Notes: a model not told the origin generated them from the sequence alone. Shown: positions 24,368-34,498, numbered from the stretch's first letter. The stretch: 64,000 bases of DNA from Deltaproteobacteria bacterium (GCA_007693585.1 REDH01000065.1:1-64000), one strand, 5' to 3'. A program made the numbers and translations.

Positions 24368-25780
24368 ATGCTGGCCCTGCGGACGGCCGGGGTGCGCGGT
24401 GCATCCCTCTTGCCCCTGCGGCCTGACGAAGAGTTGCTCATGTGCGGTTCCGATTCGACCAAGCTGATTCGCCAGTGGAAGGATGTCGTTGCCGAGGCCT
24501 TCGACCACTGTTCGTCCGTGACCATCGAGCCGCGCGAGGATTCCCTCCCGGACGAGGGTGCTCCGGACCTGGACGATCTTCTGCGACAGGCTGCCGAGGA
24601 CCCGGTGGACGCCCCGCCGCTCGGCCAGCTTCTCCACCGCGCCCGGTCCGTTGTTCTACTCGTTCCCGACGAGGAAGAACCACTCCATCCCGGGACCCTG
24701 CACACCGTCATCGCGCTGATCGACGAACTGGCGCCGGAGGCCAGGATCGAGGTGCTGCTCGTTCCCACCGGAACCGACCCTTGCATCGGTCCCGGTGACC
24801 ACCGGCAGACCGTCCGCTCCCTGTTCGCCAGCCAGACACTGGGGCGACAGCCGGCGCGGGTTCGACGGCCCGATCCCCGCACATTCCGCTCCGTCATCAC
24901 CGAGCAACCGCTCAGGCACCCAGCGACGCGAAGGGTGATTCCGGCCCTGGTTGACCCCGCCTTCTTCGACGCGGACGTGATCATCGCGCTCCACCGTGTA
25001 CGGCCCGACGTTCAGCTGGGCCTGACCGGCGGGTTCGCTTCGGTGCTCGTCGGCGCCAGCTCGCCGCGCACGCTCGCGGAGGTGCTGCACCCGGAGCTCC
25101 TGGAGTCCACGGTCTTCCCCGCCTCCCCGATGGAGCACCCGGCTCATCGCGCCTTCCGACGGATCGGCCGCGCCCTGCCGCCCGTGTTCGCCATCGCGGA
25201 GTGCCCCGGCGACGAGTCGTTTGCCTACGCGGCCGGTGCCCCTTCCGCCGTGCTTCAGGCCCTCGCCACCGATATCGACTCGCCACTTCATCACCTCTCG
25301 GGCACCCACGACGGGCTCATTCTCTTCGTCGAGCCTCACGCGGCGCGCGACCTGGAGACGGCTCTGCTACCCTATCTGCATCTGGTGCGGCAACCGACCG
25401 TCCCGCTCGTGGAGCAGGGCGCCGTGGTCCTCGTCCCCTCGGCCGAGCTGCCTGCAACTCGCGACGAGTTCTCCGCCCCGGTCACCCCGCACGGCGCCCC
25501 CGCCGGTGCACGCCTCGGCCGCGAGGCCCTCCGCGATCTGGTCACCCGCTCTGCCCGCCAGCACCCGCTCCACGTCGTGCATCCGGACGCGGGCGAGCTC
25601 CCGGAGGGGGTGCGTGCTCACCGTTCGTTCGCGCGCGCCATCCGCTCGCTCGAACTCGAGCGCACGGTCCGCAAGGGCACGGAGCAGCTCGACCTGTTGC
25701 TCACCCGTGGTGGTGGGCGTATGCTGCCGACCGGACGCTCCGACGCCCCGGATCCCCGAGCGATCCAGCGCCCTGTCTGA
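24368..25780 (+). CDS. LarA/DUF2088-like protein lacking the nickel-pincer ligands
   Basis: About 470 residues. The layout matches lactate racemase LarA: SVVLLVPDEEEPLHP and VLLVPTGTD correspond to the N-terminal Rossmann part, FFDADVIIAL and LTGGFASVLVGASSPRTL to the cofactor-site region, and DGLILFVEP to the C-terminal part. The residues that hold the nickel-pincer cofactor in LarA appear changed: GTHR is GTD, the PH motif is PD, and the Lys after the Gly-Gly is missing. One His (LHPEL) may remain. Racemase activity is therefore unlikely. ATG 24368 is chosen, with an upstream TTG (24344) as the alternative. The AGPS-like gene follows after 29 bases, probably in one operon. Confidence 0.65.
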   Translation: MLALRTAGVRGASLLPLRPDEELLMCGSDSTKLIRQWKDVVAEAFDHCSSVTIEPREDSLPDEGAPDLDDLLRQAAEDPVDAPPLGQLLHRARSVVLLVPDEEEPLHPGTLHTVIALIDELAPEARIEVLLVPTGTDPCIGPGDHRQTVRSLFASQTLGRQPARVRRPDPRTFRSVITEQPLRHPATRRVIPALVDPAFFDADVIIALHRVRPDVQLGLTGGFASVLVGASSPRTLAEVLHPELLESTVFPASPMEHPAHRAFRRIGRALPPVFAIAECPGDESFAYAAGAPSAVLQALATDIDSPLHHLSGTHDGLILFVEPHAARDLETALLPYLHLVRQPTVPLVEQGAVVLVPSAELPATRDEFSAPVTPHGAPAGARLGREALRDLVTRSARQHPLHVVHPDAGELPEGVRAHRSFARAIRSLELERTVRKGTEQLDLLLTRGGGRMLPTGRSDAPDPRAIQRPV

Positions 25781-25809
25781 ACCTCCTTCCACACCGACCG
25801 CAACGCTCC

Positions 25810-27423
25810 ATGGCCACCCAGCAAGGCGCCCCAAGCGTCCCGTTCCTGCCCGATGCGATCGCCAACGAGCTCCGCCTGCGACTCTCGCCGAGCGCCCGGG
25901 TGCGTGTCGACGACGCCGCACGCCTGCTCTACAGCAGGGACTGCTGGCCATGGCTCCTGATCCACACCCGCGCAGGGCGGCATAGCCTCCGCCCGCCCCA
26001 CGCCGTCGTTCAGCCCGCCACCATCGAGGACGTGCAGGAGACCATCCGGATGGCCGCCGCACACGGCCTGCCCGTGGTCCCCTACGGCGCCGGTTCCGGC
26101 GTCACGGGAGCAGCGGTTCCCACCCGGGGCGGGCTGACTGTCGACCTGAAACGGCTGACATCCCTCGACCTCTCTCTCGCCGGGGACGGCATCGCCCGCC
26201 TCGGTGCAGGCTGGGTTGGCGGACGCCTCGAACACGTCCTCAACCGCCGCGGGCTGACCCTCGGGCACTTTCCCTCGAGCATCGGGTGCAGCACCCTCGG
26301 CGGCTGGATTGCCACACGGTCCGCCGGACAGCTCTCCACCCGGCATGGCAAGATCGAGGACCGCGTTCTCGCGACACGTCTGGTGGACGCGAACGGCGAT
26401 CTCCGGCACGTGCCCACGCCCCACACCGACGCACTCCCGATCCTTGTCGGCTCCGAAGGAACGCTGGGCGTCCTCGTTGACGCCGACGTGGTCATCGAAC
26501 CCCTGCCGCGCGCCCGGCGCTATCGAGGCTTCCTCGCCCGAACCGTGGACGAAGCCCTCGATGCGATGCGAGAGGTCCTGCAACAGGGGCAGCGCCCCGC
26601 TGTTCTGCGGCTCTACGACGCCTTCGACACGTTCATCAGCAGCGCCCGACGCGCCACCGCCGGGGCCGCACCCTCCTCGGACGGACTCACCCGACGGCTG
26701 CGCGCGTGGATCGACCGGCGGGTCTCCGTGAGCGAGGCCCGACGCTTCGCGCTCAACGCCGGCGCCGGTCTCCTGCGCCGGACCGACATGGCCCCCATCG
26801 CCCTGAACCGGGCCGCCGACACCCTCTTCGACGGATGCCTGCTGATCGCAGGGGTCGAGGAGGCAGACGACGAACACGCGGACGCCAGCGCTGCGGACCT
26901 CTTCGGGCTCCTCGGGGACCGCCTCGATGATCTCGGCACTGCCCCGGGAGACCACTGGTACGCCCACCGCTACGACGTCTCGTACAAGCAATCGCCCGCC
27001 TACGACTCCGGAATCTTCGTGGACACGATGGAGGTCGCGGCCTCCTGGGACCGCCTTCCGCACCTGCACGCCGCGGTCCGGAGCGCCCTCGGCGACCATG
27101 TCTTCGTCATGGCCCACTTCAGCCACGCCTATGCCGCCGGCTGCTCCATCTACTTCACCTTCGCCGGCTTCGGGCGCGACGACGACGAGTGCCTGACGAT
27201 CTATGCGCGGGCGTGGAACGCCGCGCTGGCCGCCGCCGCGCGCTCCGGGGGCGCCGTCACCCACCACCACGGCGTCGGGCTGCTCAAGGCCGCCCACCTC
27301 ATCGACGATCACACCGGCGGAGGTGCGCTCTTCGACCGGGTCAAGCACGCGGTCGATCCGGACGATCGCCTCAACCCCGGCAAGCTTTGGCACGCTCCCC
27401 CGTTCGACGAGGTCAGGCCATGA
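25810..27423 (+). CDS. FAD-binding oxidoreductase of alkyl-DHAP-synthase (AGPS)/GlcD type
   Basis: 537 residues with a PCMH-type FAD domain (VVPYGAGSGVTGA, GHFPSSIGCSTLGGWIATR, GKIEDRVL, VGSEGTLGVL) and the C-terminal cap domain of the GlcD/AGPS group. Several stretches resemble alkyl-dihydroxyacetonephosphate synthase more than glycolate oxidase: STLGGW.ATR.SG, AHFSHAYAAGCSIYFTF and GGAVTHHHGVGLLK. The last contains the HHH motif that is catalytic in AGPS. That enzyme swaps the acyl group of acyl-DHAP for a fatty alcohol to start ether-lipid synthesis. ATG 25810 starts the conserved part. The stop overlaps the next ATG (ATGA). Substrate unproven. Confidence 0.8.
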   Translation: MATQQGAPSVPFLPDAIANELRLRLSPSARVRVDDAARLLYSRDCWPWLLIHTRAGRHSLRPPHAVVQPATIEDVQETIRMAAAHGLPVVPYGAGSGVTGAAVPTRGGLTVDLKRLTSLDLSLAGDGIARLGAGWVGGRLEHVLNRRGLTLGHFPSSIGCSTLGGWIATRSAGQLSTRHGKIEDRVLATRLVDANGDLRHVPTPHTDALPILVGSEGTLGVLVDADVVIEPLPRARRYRGFLARTVDEALDAMREVLQQGQRPAVLRLYDAFDTFISSARRATAGAAPSSDGLTRRLRAWIDRRVSVSEARRFALNAGAGLLRRTDMAPIALNRAADTLFDGCLLIAGVEEADDEHADASAADLFGLLGDRLDDLGTAPGDHWYAHRYDVSYKQSPAYDSGIFVDTMEVAASWDRLPHLHAAVRSALGDHVFVMAHFSHAYAAGCSIYFTFAGFGRDDDECLTIYARAWNAALAAAARSGGAVTHHHGVGLLKAAHLIDDHTGGGALFDRVKHAVDPDDRLNPGKLWHAPPFDEVRP

Positions 27424-28496
27424 CCTCCCGGGAACCCATCGACGGACGAATCTGGCCCAGTCGGGTCCACCGGGAGCTCGGGCATCCGCTGCCGGAGGAA
27501 CGCCCCCGTACCGAGCGTGAGCTGATCGGTCTGCTGGACGGACACCGGCAATGGGTCCCAGTGGCCGGCGGACACTCCGGGCGGCGCGTGCCCCACGCGG
27601 CCGCCGCATGGCTCGCGCTGGACGCCCTGCCGGCCAGCGCGGTCGTCGACCCCGTCAGCCTCTCCGCCACCGTGCGCGGCCCCATGACCTGGAGCGGACT
27701 CGAGGAGACCCTCCGGCCACACGGGCTCACCGCCAGCCGAATGGTCGGCACCGCCGCACCGCGCGGCGTGCTGTCCACCCTGGCCCGACCGCCACTGCTT
27801 CCCGCGACATGGCTCACCCCGGTCCCCCATGCGCGCTGCACCGGAATCCGGGCGGTCGACCTCACCGGCGTCCCGTACCGGGCCGTCGACGCCCCACGCA
27901 CAGCCAGCGGCCCCGACTTCCGTGCGCTCTTTCTCGGGCAGGAGGGAAGAACGGGAATCCTCCTCAACGCCACCGTGACCGTCGACCGGGTCCGTCCGCG
28001 AACGTGTTTCGCCATCCCGACACCCCGGTTGCTCGAGCTTGCACGGGATCTGCTCCCAGCCGCGCCCCATCGCCAGCTCATCGTCGGTGGCGATCTCGAG
28101 GACAGCGCTCTGCTCATCATCGACACCGATGGCGCTGAAGGCGCGCTGCTCGCGCGTCGGGCGAAGCACGCCGGGCTTCAGCCGCGCGCCTTGCCGGAAC
28201 CGTTCGCGACAGCCCCGGCCCGAGGCGCGCGCGGTTGGTCCGTCAGCGGTCCGTGGGGCCCCATGGCACCGCTCCTCGCCGTGAAGGGAGCACGCCTGCT
28301 CGCCGGTAACGCGACCCACATGGCCATCACCCTTCCGCCAGGGCGGGGGATGCACGCGCAGCGCCTGCCGCGCGCCGTGCGACAGCTCCTAGAACACTGG
28401 CCCTCCCTCGTGCGGGTGCACCCACACGGCCTCGACGACGCCGAGAGCGCAACGGATCCGCTCCTGGCGCCGAACCTCCCCGGAGATCCTGCATGA
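27420..28496 (+). CDS. GlcE-like FAD-binding subunit
   Basis: 358 residues, recognised by a divergent PCMH FAD domain: VAGGHSGRR corresponds to the pyrophosphate loop, then SLSATVRGPMTWSGLEETLRPHGL, TAAPRGVLSTLAR and LFLGQEGRTGILLNATV. The C-terminal half matches the small cap domain of GlcE proteins loosely. In glycolate oxidase GlcE is the second flavin subunit and hands electrons to GlcF. Here it overlaps the AGPS-like gene and the Fe-S gene by 4 bases each, so a complex of the three products is likely. The sequence is diverged enough that FAD binding should be treated as probable, not certain. Confidence 0.68.
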   Translation: MTSREPIDGRIWPSRVHRELGHPLPEERPRTERELIGLLDGHRQWVPVAGGHSGRRVPHAAAAWLALDALPASAVVDPVSLSATVRGPMTWSGLEETLRPHGLTASRMVGTAAPRGVLSTLARPPLLPATWLTPVPHARCTGIRAVDLTGVPYRAVDAPRTASGPDFRALFLGQEGRTGILLNATVTVDRVRPRTCFAIPTPRLLELARDLLPAAPHRQLIVGGDLEDSALLIIDTDGAEGALLARRAKHAGLQPRALPEPFATAPARGARGWSVSGPWGPMAPLLAVKGARLLAGNATHMAITLPPGRGMHAQRLPRAVRQLLEHWPSLVRVHPHGLDDAESATDPLLAPNLPGDPA

Positions 28497-29572
28497 GCGC
28501 CCACTCCCCAAAGGAGCTCCGCACCCTCGACTACTGCACATGGTGCCCGCGGCTGTGCCACTTCTCCTGTCCGTCCGCCCTCGGCGAAGCCTCCGAGGAC
28601 GCGTCGGCCTGGGGACTGATGACCCTCGCACGCACCCTCGATCGCAACGAGATGCCCGCCACCCAGGCCTCGCTCGAGCGGCTCTGGTCATGCGCGTCCT
28701 GTTACCGGTGCCAGTCCTTCTGCAAGCACGGGAACGATGTCCCGACAGTGCTCGCCACCGCCCGCGCCAATGCGGTGCGCGCCGGCGCGCTCCCGATGTC
28801 CCTCGGGCCACTGGCCGAGCAGGTCGCCACCCGGGGCGCAGCCGTGGACGACCCCGATGGCCTGAACCGTCTCCTCGCGCGGGAGCGGAGCGTCGCTGAG
28901 AAGGCCGTCGTGGCCACCTTCTTCCCAGGCTGCGATCACGCCTCCTCGTCGGAGGGACACACCCGAGTGCGGCGGACACTCGCCCTCCTCGGGGAGTTGC
29001 TCGGCGGCGAAGTGAAGCTCGCGTGGAGGGAGGATCAGGTCTGCTGCGGAGGCACCGCAAAGCGACTCGGACTCGATGACGCGCAACGACGACAGGAGCT
29101 GGGAACGGACAGCGGGACCTCCGTGAACACGCACCCGCGCATCACCGACTGCGCCGACCTCGCGATCCGGGACGGCTGGACGTCCCTCTGGTCCGTCCTC
29201 GCAGCGCACTCCAGTGAACTGGGAGATCGATGCGGAGACCTCTCGCCCGTCACCGTGGCGCTGCACGGCGGTTGCCGGGAGCGGCGACTGGCGGACACGT
29301 CCAGGGAAGAGATCGCCGTGCTCGAGGCCACAGGCATCCAGGTGGTGACCACACGTGCCGTGAACGACGTCGACGAATGCTGCGCGGGCGATCCCGTCTA
29401 CCGGGAGGCCCGACCCGATGCATCGCTGCGGGCTGCCGCGGCCGCCGCCGACTCCTGGCATGGCGTCGACGGTGAACGCGTGACCAGCGCGTGCCGCTGT
29501 GCCGCACAGTTCACGGCTGCCGGCACCCCCGTGCGATCCCTGCTGGACGTGGTGCTCGAGCGGTGCGCGTGA
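28493..29572 (+). CDS. GlcF-like iron-sulfur protein with CCG domains
   Basis: 359 residues. Two ferredoxin-type cluster motifs lie near the N terminus, CTWCPRLCHFSCP and CASCYRCQSFCKHG. Two CCG (cysteine-rich) domains follow, with QVCCGG and DECCAGDP near residues 180 and 295. This is the architecture of GlcF, GlpC and HdrB-type electron-transfer subunits. The first cluster is CxxCxxxCxxxCP and the second CxxCxxCxxxC. It probably passes electrons from the adjacent flavoproteins to a quinone or another acceptor. ATG 28493 overlaps the GlcE-like stop, and its own stop overlaps a GTG of the lipid-kinase gene. Confidence 0.8.
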   Translation: MSAHSPKELRTLDYCTWCPRLCHFSCPSALGEASEDASAWGLMTLARTLDRNEMPATQASLERLWSCASCYRCQSFCKHGNDVPTVLATARANAVRAGALPMSLGPLAEQVATRGAAVDDPDGLNRLLARERSVAEKAVVATFFPGCDHASSSEGHTRVRRTLALLGELLGGEVKLAWREDQVCCGGTAKRLGLDDAQRRQELGTDSGTSVNTHPRITDCADLAIRDGWTSLWSVLAAHSSELGDRCGDLSPVTVALHGGCRERRLADTSREEIAVLEATGIQVVTTRAVNDVDECCAGDPVYREARPDASLRAAAAAADSWHGVDGERVTSACRCAAQFTAAGTPVRSLLDVVLERCA

Positions 29573-30546
29573 GCATGGACGTGGTCGTCATCGCCAACCC
29601 GCGCGCTGGTTCCGGCCGGGGCGAGGCCCTGGCACGGAGCCTGCAGCGGCGCCTCCCCGCCGATGTGCGCGTGCTCCGCACCGCGACCGCCGGCGAGGGC
29701 GCGGCGCTTGCGAGAGCAGCCGTAGGGGAGGGCGCTCGGGAGTTGGTCAGCATCGGGGGCGACGGAACCCACAGCGAGGTTGTCGAGGGCATCCTCTCTG
29801 CCGGCGTCCCGCCCGGCGAGGTCACCCTTCGTCCCCTTCACGCAGGAACGGGAGGAGATTTCAGGCGTCTCCTCGATGCGTTCGACCCCGAGGACACCCC
29901 GTTCGAGCACTGGGTGTCCGGCAACGCCCCGCTCATTGACGCGGGTCTGCTCGAATGGACGGACGAGGAGGGCCGGCCTGCGAGGCGACATTTCCTCAAC
30001 ATGGTCACCTTCGGTCTCGGCGGACTGGTCGACCGATACGTGAACCGCGGCTCGAAGCGACTGGGAGGGCGGACGTCGTTCTTCCTCGCGACGGTGCGGG
30101 CGCTTGCCGGCTGGAAGCCTTCGCCCGTCCGGATCGTCGCCGACGGCGTCGACCGCGGAACATGGACGGTGACCAACGTGATCGTGGGCAACGGCCGCCA
30201 CTGCGGTGGGGGCATGTGCCTCGCCCCCGAGGCGCTGCTCGACGATGGTCTCTTCGAGGTCCTCATCCTGCCGGACGTTCCGCTCTTCCGATCTGCCCGC
30301 CTCGCACCCCGCCTGTACGATGGCAGTATCCATCGCCAGGAGGGTGTCACGGCGTTTCGGGCGCGGGAGATCGAAGCCATCCCGCTGGACGAGCAGCGCC
30401 CGGCCTGGCTCGATGTGGATGGCGAGGATCTCGGCCGGATCCCATGCCGCCTCAGCGTGATTCCATCGGCCATCCGGCTTCGGACACCCCGACGAGATGT
30501 GCTCCGGGCCGGGCCGGAGCACGATGGTCGGGAGGAGGCTCCTTGA
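29569..30546 (+). CDS. Diacylglycerol kinase-family lipid kinase
   Basis: About 325 residues. NPRAGSGRGE, then the catalytic GGDGTHSEVVEG and the later GTGGDF and NVIVGNGRHCGGGM motifs identify the DagK/YegS/sphingosine-kinase fold, which phosphorylates a lipid hydroxyl with ATP. GTG 29569 makes a GTGA overlap with the upstream stop, and ATG 29575 is the alternative start. The next gene, lnt, starts with a TTGA overlap. Location inside the AGPS-like cluster points to a lipid substrate such as diacylglycerol or an alkyl-glycerol. That is inference from context. Confidence 0.85.
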   Translation: MSMDVVVIANPRAGSGRGEALARSLQRRLPADVRVLRTATAGEGAALARAAVGEGARELVSIGGDGTHSEVVEGILSAGVPPGEVTLRPLHAGTGGDFRRLLDAFDPEDTPFEHWVSGNAPLIDAGLLEWTDEEGRPARRHFLNMVTFGLGGLVDRYVNRGSKRLGGRTSFFLATVRALAGWKPSPVRIVADGVDRGTWTVTNVIVGNGRHCGGGMCLAPEALLDDGLFEVLILPDVPLFRSARLAPRLYDGSIHRQEGVTAFRAREIEAIPLDEQRPAWLDVDGEDLGRIPCRLSVIPSAIRLRTPRRDVLRAGPEHDGREEAP

Positions 30547-32345
30547 CCGCGCCCCACGATGCAACGCCCGCGCCGGAGGCAGCGGTTCAGGACGCGGCGG
30601 GCGGCTTCCTCTGGCGTCTGATGCTGACCACTGCCGCCGGGGTCGGGCTCTTCATGAGCTACCCGCGCTGGGACCTCTTCCCGCTGGCGTTCGTGGCCCT
30701 CGTTCCGCTCATGCACGTGCTCGAACGGGTTCATCGCGCGCGGGACGCGTTCCGCTGGGCCTGGTGGACGGGGTTCGTCACCAACGCGGGGGGGTTCTAC
30801 TGGATCGTCGGCATGCTCGAGGAGTTCGCACACCTTCCGCTGTGGGGCGCCCTCCCCATACATCTGCTCCTCATCGCACAACAGGCCCTCGTTCTCGGTC
30901 TCGCCGGGGCCATGGCCCACGGACTGCGGCGCAGACGCGTCCCTCTGCTCTGGTCCTGGGTCCCTGCGGTGGTGGCCGCCGAAATGCTCGTCCCGCTGAT
31001 CTTCCCGTGGTTCATCGGCAACAGCCAGGCCGCCTTCCTCCTCTTCACGCAGGCGGCGGACCTCGGGGGCGTTCTGCTGCTGACGGGGCTGGTCGTCTGC
31101 GTGAATGTGGGAGTCCTGCTGATCGTCCGGGGCGCACTCCACGCCCGCGGACGTCCGGGATTCGCTCGCCTGGAATGGCGAACCCTGTTCATGGTGGCTG
31201 TTCTGTTCGCGGGGAACCTGACCTACGGCGCGGTGCGCATCGCCGAGACGGACCGACGATCCGCGGCCGCGGAGACGCTCCGTATCGGGGTCGTTCAGGC
31301 CAACATCGGAATCCGCGAGAAGGAAGACCCGGAGCGAATGCGCAACAACCTGCTGCTGCACCAGCACCATAGCGCGAACCTCGCGGCAGCCGGTGCCGAG
31401 CTCATCATCTGGCCCGAAACGGCCTACCAGGAGCGACAGTACGTCCAGGTGCTCGAGGAGGTGGACAGTCTCGCCGAAGCGATGACACGACGCCGCGTCG
31501 GATGGCGGCTGGAGCGGAATGTCACGTGGATCCCGCCCAGCACGGCTCCCCTTGTGGAAGACTGGCGCGTGGACGAGGCCACTGGACTCGGCGTCGAGGA
31601 CCGGGCCCCCGCCCACCGCGGATTCGACGTTCCGCTGCTGACCGGGGTCGTCACGACGGAGACCTTCCCGCCCGGCTCCCGGCCGCACCTTCCCCCCTAC
31701 GGCGACCACCCGCGAGGCTGGGAGGCGTTCAACAGCGCGCTGCTGCTGGACGGGGAAGGCCGCGTGCTCGGCATGGCCGACAAGGTCAAGCTGATGCCAT
31801 TCGGCGAACACGTGCCGCTCGCGCGGTTTCTCTACCGATCGACCGGAGTCAACCTGATCAACATCCTGCCCGGTGTATCCGACTTCTCCGCAGGTCAGGA
31901 GGTCCGTGTGCTCCCGCTGCCGCAGGATGGCGGAGAGCCATGGCGGATCGGAATCCTCAACTGTTACGAGGACATTCTTCCGCGATTCGGCCGGATGCTG
32001 AATACGCTCGGACCCGACCTGCTGGTGAACCTGACCAACGACGCGTGGTTCGGCGACACCAGCGAGCCCTGGCTCCACCAGCAGCTCGCCGTGTTCAGGG
32101 CCATCGAGCAACGCACCTGGTTGATCCGGTCGACCAACACGGGGGTCTCGGCCTTCATCGACCCCGTGGGCCGGGTCGTGCAGCACACCGAGACCTTCGT
32201 CGAAGAGACGCTCCTCATGGACGTCCCGATGTTGCGTGCGGGGCGCACCCCCTACATGCGACTCGGTGACTGGCCCGGGGTCCTCGCCATGCTCTGGATC
32301 GCAGCCATCTACGCCCGAACCCTCCTGCGGCGCCGCGGGTCCTGA
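30543..32345 (+). CDS. lnt: Apolipoprotein N-acyltransferase
   Basis: Lnt adds the third acyl chain to lipoproteins in the inner membrane. It has 600 residues, longer than the E. coli protein (512). Six or so N-terminal helices are followed by the nitrilase domain with the catalytic triad Glu292 (WPETAY), Lys414 (ADKVKLMPFGE) and Cys474 (LNCYED), and a final membrane helix. The Glu-to-Lys spacing is 122 residues against about 68 in E. coli, so an insertion of about 55 lies between them. The start is TTG 30543, overlapping the kinase stop, with GGGAGGAGG 5 bases upstream. The many lipoproteins in the window are its expected substrates. Confidence 0.93.
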   Translation: MTAPHDATPAPEAAVQDAAGGFLWRLMLTTAAGVGLFMSYPRWDLFPLAFVALVPLMHVLERVHRARDAFRWAWWTGFVTNAGGFYWIVGMLEEFAHLPLWGALPIHLLLIAQQALVLGLAGAMAHGLRRRRVPLLWSWVPAVVAAEMLVPLIFPWFIGNSQAAFLLFTQAADLGGVLLLTGLVVCVNVGVLLIVRGALHARGRPGFARLEWRTLFMVAVLFAGNLTYGAVRIAETDRRSAAAETLRIGVVQANIGIREKEDPERMRNNLLLHQHHSANLAAAGAELIIWPETAYQERQYVQVLEEVDSLAEAMTRRRVGWRLERNVTWIPPSTAPLVEDWRVDEATGLGVEDRAPAHRGFDVPLLTGVVTTETFPPGSRPHLPPYGDHPRGWEAFNSALLLDGEGRVLGMADKVKLMPFGEHVPLARFLYRSTGVNLINILPGVSDFSAGQEVRVLPLPQDGGEPWRIGILNCYEDILPRFGRMLNTLGPDLLVNLTNDAWFGDTSEPWLHQQLAVFRAIEQRTWLIRSTNTGVSAFIDPVGRVVQHTETFVEETLLMDVPMLRAGRTPYMRLGDWPGVLAMLWIAAIYARTLLRRRGS

Positions 32346-32454
32346 TGAGGTTTCGAGCGCGGAGACCCCGTGACCGCGAGAATTTTGACCTTCGGGAACG
32401 ATTCGGGTTGAGTCGTCCACGAGCGCCTCTCGCGCCCGATTCCCAGTGGAACCC

Positions 32455-33444
32455 ATGCCGTACGCCATCCGTCGAATCACACTCTCCCTCGTGGCCGCCA
32501 TCGGCCTCGGGTGCAGCGTCACCGCATGCGGCGGTGCTCAGCACACCGTGACGCCGGACGAAGTCGAACAGATGCAGGCCCGCATCGCCGATCTCGAGCG
32601 CAACAACGCTCGGCTGCGCGTGAGGATCGAGGACGGGGAGTCGCGTCTCTACCTGCTCCAGGATCGGGTGGAGGCCAACCGCATCGCGCTTCAGCAGCAG
32701 GGCGCCTCCATGCGGGCTGCCGGTGGTCCTCCGGCGCCCTCGACAGGACAGTCCTGGGGCTGGCAGGGACACGCGCCCCAGCCGAGCGCGCCGCCACGAC
32801 AGCAGCACACGGGACAGCCGCGCCGCATGATGCCCGAGCTTCCAACGCAGAGCCTCGGACCGGTTGACCCGGCGCCGCCGGAAACCGATGGCGAACACGT
32901 CGTCATCACACAGGACGTGTTCGAGCAGCGCTTCGGGGGCGGCGGCTCTCCGGGTTCCCCGCCTTCCGCTCCTTCCGGCGGAACGCGTGGACCCCTTCCT
33001 CCCGTCATCCCGGACTCGGAACGTATTCCGACATCCCGTGAGCTCGCGGCGCAGAGCCCCGCCTCGAACTTGTCCGCGCTCGAGCTCTACCAGGAAGGAC
33101 TGCAGCAGTTCAATGCGCGCGAGTATCGCGAGGGACTGGCTTCCATGAGACGTGTTCTGGAGATGGGACCACCGCCCAACTACACGGACAACGCGCTCTA
33201 CTGGATCGGCGAGTGCTACTACGGCCTCGGTGAGTGGGAAGACGCGCTGCGGTACTTCCAGCGCGTGGTGAGCGAACACCCGGGCGGCAACAAGGCCGCC
33301 GACGCCATGCTCAAGATTGCCCTGACACACGAGCGTCTCCAGAGCAGCAGCGACGCGATCGAGGTGCTCCGCACCCTCGTGGACATGCACCCCGGCACGA
33401 ACTCCGCCAGGCGTGCCGCCGAACGACTCCGTGAACTCGAGTAG
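32455..33444 (+). CDS. CpoB/YbgF-like TPR lipoprotein
   Basis: 329 residues. A lipoprotein signal ends at VTAC (Cys about 25). It is followed by a coiled coil (QMQARIADLERNNARLRVRIEDGESRL) and a long Pro/Gly/Gln-rich linker. At the C terminus (about 220-329) are three TPR repeats of the YbgF/CpoB type (LYQEGLQQFNAREYREGLASM, ALYWIGECYYGLGEWEDAL). CpoB trimerises through its coiled coil and links Tol/Pal constriction with peptidoglycan synthesis. No tol-pal genes lie nearby, so the exact role is open. A GTG at 32446 is an alternative start. The LysM-protein gene follows after 28 bases. Confidence 0.8.
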   Translation: MPYAIRRITLSLVAAIGLGCSVTACGGAQHTVTPDEVEQMQARIADLERNNARLRVRIEDGESRLYLLQDRVEANRIALQQQGASMRAAGGPPAPSTGQSWGWQGHAPQPSAPPRQQHTGQPRRMMPELPTQSLGPVDPAPPETDGEHVVITQDVFEQRFGGGGSPGSPPSAPSGGTRGPLPPVIPDSERIPTSRELAAQSPASNLSALELYQEGLQQFNAREYREGLASMRRVLEMGPPPNYTDNALYWIGECYYGLGEWEDALRYFQRVVSEHPGGNKAADAMLKIALTHERLQSSSDAIEVLRTLVDMHPGTNSARRAAERLRELE

Positions 33445-33472
33445 TGACCGACCCCGACCGCGAGGACTCCAG

Positions 33473-34498
33473 ATGACTCTTCGACTTCTTCGAACACTCC
33501 TGTTGGCGGCAGCCGGTGCCGGTGCGCTCGGAGCTCTCGCTCACGAGGCCGTCGCGCAGGATCAGTTCCATGATGACACCCCTGTGCACGTCGCAGGGCA
33601 GGGCGATACCCTCTGGGGCCTGAGCGAGCTGTACTTCGGTAATTCGCAGATGTGGCCGCAGCTGTGGGCGTGGAATCCCCACGTGACGAACCCGCACTGG
33701 ATCTACCCCGGAGATGTCATCTTCCTGGGCCCGCGGGCGCTTCGACCCGCGGACGGGCCCGCCCGGCATCAGGCCGCCGCGCTCCCGGACAGCGCCGGGC
33801 TCTACTTCCCGCTGGGCGGCTTCTACACGTCGACGGAGATCCCCTCCGTCGGGACCTTGCGATTCGCGAGGGCCGACCGTCGCCTGCTCCAACCCCTCGA
33901 CGAGGTCTACCTCGAGTTCGAGGAACCCGAGAACGTTCGCATCGGGGACGAGTACGTCATCAACCGCGTCGAGGGCCGAATCCAGGACCGCCGCGAGACC
34001 GTCGCGGTGAAGTATCGCACGACAGGCCGGGTTCGCGTCACGCAGGCGCACGAGTCCACACCGCTCTTCTCGGCCGAGATCACCGATCTGTACGACACCA
34101 TCGAACGCGACGACCTGCTGTTCGTCGCACAGCCGCAGATTCTTCTCGTCGAGCCGCGGGAGAACACGGTGGACCTCGAAGGGGAGATCATCGACCGACT
34201 CGACCCGATTCGCTTCATGCACCAGTTCCACACGGTCTTCATCGACCTGGGCCAGAACGACGGCGTCCGCGTCGGAAACCGGTTCTTCATGTGGCAGCGC
34301 GAAGACATGGGCGAGAGCATCCGTCTCGCACGCGAAGGCCGTGCGTACCAGGAGGAGGTTCGCTCCCTGCTGCCGTGGCAGTTCGTCGGTGAGGCCATGG
34401 CCATCTACGTCGGAGAGAACTACAGCACCGCGGTGATCCTGACGGCAAATGTCGAGGTGTCCGTCGGTCAGCGCATCACATTGCAGGCCGGCCACTGA
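33473..34498 (+). CDS. Secreted LysM-domain protein
   Basis: 341 residues. The signal peptide is cleaved near EAVAQ-D (residue about 29). A LysM peptidoglycan-binding domain follows at residues 38-85 (VAGQGDTLWGLSELYFGNSQMWPQLW, ending IYPGDVIFL). The remaining 250 residues are beta-rich and unassigned. They include a segment FIDLGQNDGVRVGNRFFMW that resembles ligand-independent beta-barrel modules in LysM proteins of deltaproteobacteria. It is probably periplasmic and bound to the cell wall. GAGGA lies before ATG 33473. It sits next to the CpoB-like gene, consistent with a wall-associated role. Confidence 0.8.
   Translation: MTLRLLRTLLLAAAGAGALGALAHEAVAQDQFHDDTPVHVAGQGDTLWGLSELYFGNSQMWPQLWAWNPHVTNPHWIYPGDVIFLGPRALRPADGPARHQAAALPDSAGLYFPLGGFYTSTEIPSVGTLRFARADRRLLQPLDEVYLEFEEPENVRIGDEYVINRVEGRIQDRRETVAVKYRTTGRVRVTQAHESTPLFSAEITDLYDTIERDDLLFVAQPQILLVEPRENTVDLEGEIIDRLDPIRFMHQFHTVFIDLGQNDGVRVGNRFFMWQREDMGESIRLAREGRAYQEEVRSLLPWQFVGEAMAIYVGENYSTAVILTANVEVSVGQRITLQAGH

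Follow-up and report, generated by a model that had tools for sequence, protein, structure and literature searches.

A conserved myxobacterial operon points to an undescribed, putatively membrane-linked complex acting on glycerolipids or glycerol compounds

Results

We analysed a 64-kb stretch of DNA (the window) from the genome of a Deltaproteobacteria bacterium (GCA_007693585.1, REDH01000065.1:1-64000), in which a first-pass annotation had noticed a cluster of redox and lipid genes at positions 24368-32345. Open reading frame (ORF) calls placed six intact ORFs there, all on the + strand, and Pfam and NCBIfam searches of their products supplied the domain assignments. In order, they encode a LarA-like protein of 470 residues with a degenerate Lar_N domain (24368..25780), a flavoprotein of 537 residues that resembles alkyl-dihydroxyacetone-phosphate (alkyl-DHAP) synthase, AGPS, and is presumed to be a catalytic subunit (agps, 25810..27423), a GlcE-like second subunit of the flavoprotein fold with 358 residues (glcE, 27420..28496), a GlcF-like Fe-S/CCG subunit of 359 residues (ccg, 28493..29572), a lipid kinase of the YegS/DAGK type (dagk, 29569..30546), and the apolipoprotein N-acyltransferase Lnt (30543..32345). 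The cluster is real in the form first described, the last five genes being linked by four 4-base overlaps (27420-27423, 28493-28496, 29569-29572 and 30543-30546). At the first two of these, glcE and ccg start with ATG. The other two require the rarer starts GTG for dagk (325 residues, or 323 from an alternative ATG at 29575) and TTG for lnt (600 residues). The LarA-like gene is separated from the flavoprotein gene by a 29-base gap rather than an overlap, and no terminator-like site was found in that gap.

Whole-genome questions were approached through family searches of the genome, the assembly of which measures 4.97 Mb in 223 contigs and is 97.7% complete. Orthologues of the operon sit in Myxococcota: relatives of the same class include Lujinxingia and Bradymonadaceae, and the remoter hosts are Archangium, Polyangiaceae, Kofleriaceae, Sandaracinaceae and a few metagenome-assembled genomes (MAGs) labelled Wallbacteria. 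The host genome itself belongs to Myxococcota, on the Bradymonadia side.

In regions taken from 40 related genomes, the order agps-glcE-ccg-dagk recurred in many Myxococcota families, and the tetrad, or clear parts of it, was found across the phylum with flanks that differ between families. Named genomes provided 53 loci in which the sequence extends 4 kb or more downstream; at these, ccg lay near the flavoprotein gene 39 times, glcE 38 times, dagk 33 times and lnt 15 times. The counts come from our own gene calls and are approximate and probably low. Several lineages carry agps-glcE fusions. The flavoprotein clade itself was present in 143 of 284 Myxococcota genomes, representing 100 of 189 genera. 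Since the genome of the window contains five DAGK_cat genes in total, dagk of the operon among them, repeated chance adjacency of such a gene to agps is not credible. Conservation of the tetrad across so many families is far beyond chance, and its four genes are the conserved core of the cluster. Conservation in relatives, which the first-pass annotation had named as a check on its reading, was found for these four genes. One MAG labelled Candidatus Wallbacteria (locus L212, 6125-8781) carries agps and ccg from this clade behind a RimK-like ATP-grasp gene, with no recognised glcE or dagk; transfer and mis-binning are both possible.

Both end genes, which had been taken as members of the unit, lie outside this core. 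The LarA-like protein gave only a weak partial match to Lar_N in Pfam (E=2e-4, below the cut-off) and scored far below the NCBIfam cut-offs. In an alignment to 9eia, the LarA motifs TGLHRP and GGRK read TGTDPC and GGFASV in the window protein, and the histidine and lysine residues with which a LarA racemase holds its nickel pincer are lost. No relative had a LarA-like homologue adjoining the operon, and only weak partial matches occurred elsewhere. The gene is probably a genome-specific neighbour, and a module of lactate racemase (LarA) and dehydrogenase was ruled out because the gene is degenerate and not conserved. Lnt has the LNT_N and CN_hydrolase domains and exceeds the cut-off of TIGR00546 with 240.6 bits. 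Its gene follows dagk in only some families, and at 15 of the 53 named loci, and is an optional, lineage-specific tail of the operon.

The flavoprotein combines the Pfam domains FAD_binding_4 and FAD-oxidase_C. Its closest solved structures were those of AGPS, 2uuu (profile E=5e-102) and 4bby (1e-77), which came before LDHD and other D-lactate dehydrogenases, and AGPS entries were also the first fold matches of its AlphaFold model (pLDDT 86; E=2e-33), with LDHD next (1e-27). A maximum-likelihood tree was built from the operon proteins together with AGPS, E. coli GlcD, LDHD, Streptomyces proteins and paralogues present in Archangium genomes. In it, the operon clade was sister to the AGPS clade (node support 95/97, with 99.8/100 for the AGPS clade itself); support for the operon proteins as a single clade was moderate to weak (80/36). 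Approximately unbiased (AU) tests rejected each constrained placement of the clade (p from 4e-7 down), be it inside GlcD, beside LDHD, among the GlcD-like proteins as a whole or next to the GlcD-Fe-S fusion that the genome itself encodes. That fusion (contig C25, 6485-8785; FAD_binding_4, FAD-oxidase_C and Fer4_8) is YdiJ-like, is ended by the contig edge and is the only other clear GlcD-family protein of the genome.

The active-site residues of AGPS are largely retained. R267 (codon 26608..26610, + strand) is equivalent to AGPS R419, as aligned through the R419H mutant chain 4bc7, and Y448 (27151..27153, + strand) to Y578, as aligned through the Y578F mutant chain 4bca. H485-H486-H487 (27262..27270, + strand) correspond to HHH 615-617 in the HHHG motif of AGPS, where GlcD and LDHD have GEHG. 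All of these residues were invariant in 43 orthologues. The glutamate of GEHG is accordingly gone, as is the metal motif HxGDGNxH of GlcD/LDHD, which reads SHAYAAGCSIY in the window protein. An identity as GlcD or D-lactate dehydrogenase was thus ruled out by the tree, the AU tests and the lost metal ligands, in agreement with the first-pass annotation, which had set the protein apart from GlcD. C160 is invariant and peculiar to the operon clade, and W383xxxR387 resembles the WxxR motif of GlcD/LDHD. The literature that we searched offered nothing direct on the catalytic AGPS residues or on Myxococcus AGPS.

The GlcE-like protein evolves fast (mean column identity 25-28%) and gave only a sub-threshold FAD_binding_4 match (E=0.07). 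In hhalign profile comparison it scored 99.9% against the FAD domain of the AGPS clade and 96.8% against full-length E. coli GlcE, and its AlphaFold model (pLDDT 73) had the LDHD/AGPS fold (E=2e-12). The idea of a merely decayed copy of the catalytic subunit was dropped, because the profile also aligns over the full length with GlcE; for the same reason the GlcE-like assignment was kept. The ccg product has Fer4_8 and CCG domains and aligns with its orthologues and with E. coli GlcF. Its cysteines form the 4Fe-4S motifs C15/18/22/26 and C67/70/73/77, plus two CCG-type motifs, the first of which is absent in some lineages. Partner subunits of both the GlcE and the GlcF type are therefore present, and the likeness to the parts of a glycolate oxidase that had first been remarked upon holds by profile, alignment and model. 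The kinase combines DAGK_cat with YegS_C, and its GGDGT and DGE motifs are kept among the operon orthologues. Together, these partners, the AGPS-type flavoprotein and the kinase motifs describe a GlcDEF-like anatomy in which the catalytic subunit is AGPS-type and to which a lipid kinase is added.

Discussion

The reading that we favour, tentatively and at somewhat less than even odds, is that the tetrad encodes a GlcDEF-like, membrane-associated complex linked to the (mena)quinone pool, with an active site of the AGPS rather than the 2-hydroxyacid dehydrogenase type, and a lipid kinase of the same pathway. At its flavin, the AGPS-like subunit would bind an (ether-)glycerolipid of the glycerone or glycerol type through R267, Y448 and H485-487, and would cleave, exchange or oxidise that lipid on the sn-1 side. 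Electrons would travel between this flavin and the (mena)quinone pool by way of the GlcE-like and Fe-S/CCG subunits; menaquinone-7 (MK-7) is the only quinone that has been reported from Bradymonadales (PMC7188933). The kinase may phosphorylate a diacyl- or alkylglycerol, either one fed into the pathway or one released from it. Run in one direction, such a system would synthesise or remodel lipids. In the other it would break them down, an alkylglycerol first receiving a phosphate, then being oxidised to its glycerone form and finally cleaved. The fuller proposal is that about half of the sampled Myxococcota possess a respiratory-chain-coupled complex of this kind, distinct from AgpS, ElbD and PlsA/GerA, which synthesises ether or glycerone lipids, remodels them or cleaves them oxidatively and delivers electrons to menaquinone. 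We consider it possible though rather doubtful.

Comparison with known systems shows how the operon differs from each. The flavoprotein shares with AGPS/ADPS (2uuu, 4bby) its fold, sisterhood in the tree and the R419, Y578 and HHH equivalents. However, identity is only about 27-31%, the operon proteins form a separate clade that has an invariant C160 of its own and Q394 in place of the YxRD arginine, and AGPS lacks the electron-transfer partners that the operon protein has. E. coli GlcDEF likewise consists of two flavoprotein-type subunits of the PCMH fold and a 4Fe-4S/CCG subunit, but the catalytic subunit of the operon is AGPS-type, without the metal site or GEHG, and its placement with GlcD is rejected. 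Within Myxococcota, the M. xanthus operon MXAN_1676-1674 also contains an AGPS-family flavoprotein, AgpS (MXAN_1676), which is reported to be about 42% identical to human AGPS, adjoins a FAR/GNPAT-like protein and an NAD epimerase, and has a minor effect on ether lipids, the main route being that of ElbD (PMC9131029). The operon clade has GlcE, GlcF and the kinase as partners instead; FAR-GNPAT-like and NAD-epimerase genes were not a conserved feature among its neighbours, and identity with M. xanthus AgpS was ruled out since the operon is different.

Pairs of an AGPS-like protein and a lipid kinase have also arisen elsewhere. In P. aeruginosa, PA3026 (AGPS-like), PA3025 (GlpD), PA3024 (a carbohydrate kinase) and PA3023 (a YegS-type kinase) are activated together by GliR, as is phospholipase C, and mutants without PA3026-PA3024 showed no growth phenotype (PMC8151288). 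As in the operon, an AGPS-like oxidoreductase is co-regulated with a YegS-type lipid kinase; unlike in the operon, GlpD serves as the redox partner, a carbohydrate kinase is included and GlcE and GlcF are missing. Plasmid p1 of Streptomyces fungicidicus has an AGPS-like flavoprotein followed by a kinase of the YegS/Rv2252 family, with GlpD alongside. This flavoprotein falls in the AGPS clade, not the operon clade, and its cluster has no Fe-S/CCG subunit. It represents an actinobacterial cluster of GlpD, TetR, AGPS-like protein and YegS kinase that matches the operon in the succession of flavoprotein and kinase, and to which Rv2249c-Rv2252 also belongs. The pairs in Streptomyces and Pseudomonas strengthen the view of the first-pass annotation that a redox complex is joined here to lipid genes. 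That interpretation is supported in part: the separation from GlcD, the conservation and the link to lipids stand, the places given to the LarA-like protein and Lnt in the core do not, and an alkyl lipid as the product is hypothetical.

Several points weigh against the proposed complex. Eukaryotic AGPS catalyses a redox-neutral reaction that requires no electron acceptor; either the chemistry differs in the operon, then, or the electron-transfer partners have another role. The YxRD arginine of AGPS is not kept, the window protein reading Y392-K393-Q394-S395 and its orthologues having Q or M, occasionally S or L, in that column. Some members of the clade have no dagk or glcE nearby, or have agps with ccg only. 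The suggested chemistry is drawn from sequence and gene context, and our literature search found no ether-lipid analysis for this bacterial group. Lastly, AGPS-like proteins occur in operons with polyol or sugar kinases, which means that the substrate may not be a lipid.

This last point underlies an alternative that we rate as unlikely, though still to be reckoned with: a quinone-linked dehydrogenase of non-lipid compounds of the polyol, sugar-acid or glycerol-phosphate type, with a kinase that either takes a related small compound as its substrate or shares no more than regulation with the other genes. An AGPS-like protein adjoins GlpD and an FGGY kinase in Novosphingobium, GlpK and GlpD on a Microbacterium plasmid, and a four-carbon acid sugar kinase and PdxA in Methylobacterium; in other Myxococcota subfamilies it adjoins GlpD alone. 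These other subfamilies mostly keep the same active-site residues (the R419, Y578 and HHH equivalents). The AGPS signature alone is therefore no proof of ether-lipid synthesis and fails as the marker for which it had first been taken, and it is unsafe to annotate such proteins as ether-lipid synthases, as illustrated by the Novosphingobium and Microbacterium operons, whose AGPS-like proteins have the equivalents of R419, Y578 and HHH. The theme common to AGPS-like neighbourhoods is glycerol and glycerone phosphate metabolism, of which ether-lipid synthesis is only one possibility. Against a non-lipid substrate, the kinase of the operon is a YegS/DAGK lipid kinase, not a sugar kinase. Moreover, searches found GlpD in the genome of the window and in 81 of 96 genomes, which already provides for the simple oxidation of glycerol-3-phosphate, and the operon as a substitute for missing GlpD was ruled out.

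About equally improbable is an operon for a true bacterial alkyl-DHAP synthase. The flavoprotein would then form ether lipids by exchanging the acyl chain of acyl-DHAP for a fatty alcohol, the GlcE- and GlcF-like proteins would be accessory, for example in keeping the flavin oxidised, and the kinase would recycle diacyl- or alkylglycerol. The sister position of the flavoprotein to AGPS and the retained catalytic residues speak for such an enzyme, as do the absence of a PlsA-type DUF2229 (PF09989) protein from the genome and the presence of an elb-like gene set on contig C19, the ether lipids of M. xanthus depending chiefly on ElbD (PMC9131029). However, the operon lacks FAR and GNPAT, the known AgpS sits in a different operon with a FAR-GNPAT-like protein, AGPS needs no electron carriers, and the YxRD arginine is not kept.

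A 2-hydroxyacid dehydrogenase of the glycolate or D-lactate type (GlcDEF), possibly fed by a LarA-like racemase, would account for the three-gene architecture with GlcE- and GlcF-like subunits and for W383xxxR387, but it is still less probable in view of the AU tests, the missing metal ligands and GEHG glutamate, and a LarA-like protein that lacks the nickel-pincer motifs and is not conserved. Least probable is mere co-transcription of four genes with no common function, for although some lineages have agps without dagk, or only agps and ccg, the order is kept across families while the flanks change fully, agps-glcE fusions recur, and AGPS-like proteins and lipid kinases are linked independently in two other phyla.

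Bacterial ether-lipid metabolism has so far been mapped in part only, and metagenome studies routinely use counts of AGPS homologues as a marker of ether-lipid synthesis (PMC11868695). A large, separate AGPS-like clade tied to electron-transfer subunits and a lipid kinase means that such counts may mislead. The operon, which by its gene content appears to point to an undescribed membrane-linked complex acting on glycerolipids or glycerol compounds, offers, in the cultivable Lujinxingia and its relatives, a defined case for testing whether a glycerolipid enzyme is redox-coupled.

Other loci deserve brief mention. Archangium-type genomes (L211, 5627-8835; L214, 5466-8701) have a second AGPS-like protein, with HQHG instead of HHHG, adjoining a GlpD-type dehydrogenase, and in Arthrobacter an AGPS-like protein is paired with GlpD. 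The anaerobic PlsA/GerA route to ether lipids was ruled out for the genome of the window, which lacks DUF2229. Its elb-like set (contig C19, 552-9095) comprises a HAD protein, a FAR-type NAD_binding_4 protein (612 residues), an NAD-epimerase/NAD_binding_4 protein (445 residues), a polysaccharide pyruvyl transferase, an AMP-binding protein, an enoyl-CoA hydratase and a possible acyl carrier protein of 77 residues; at the level of Pfam domains, the set resembles the M. xanthus elb operon divided into separate genes. In the window, a TPR lipoprotein-like gene (YbgF/YfiO-like) and a LysM protein gene follow 3' of lnt (32446-34498) with their own spacing and lie outside the operon.

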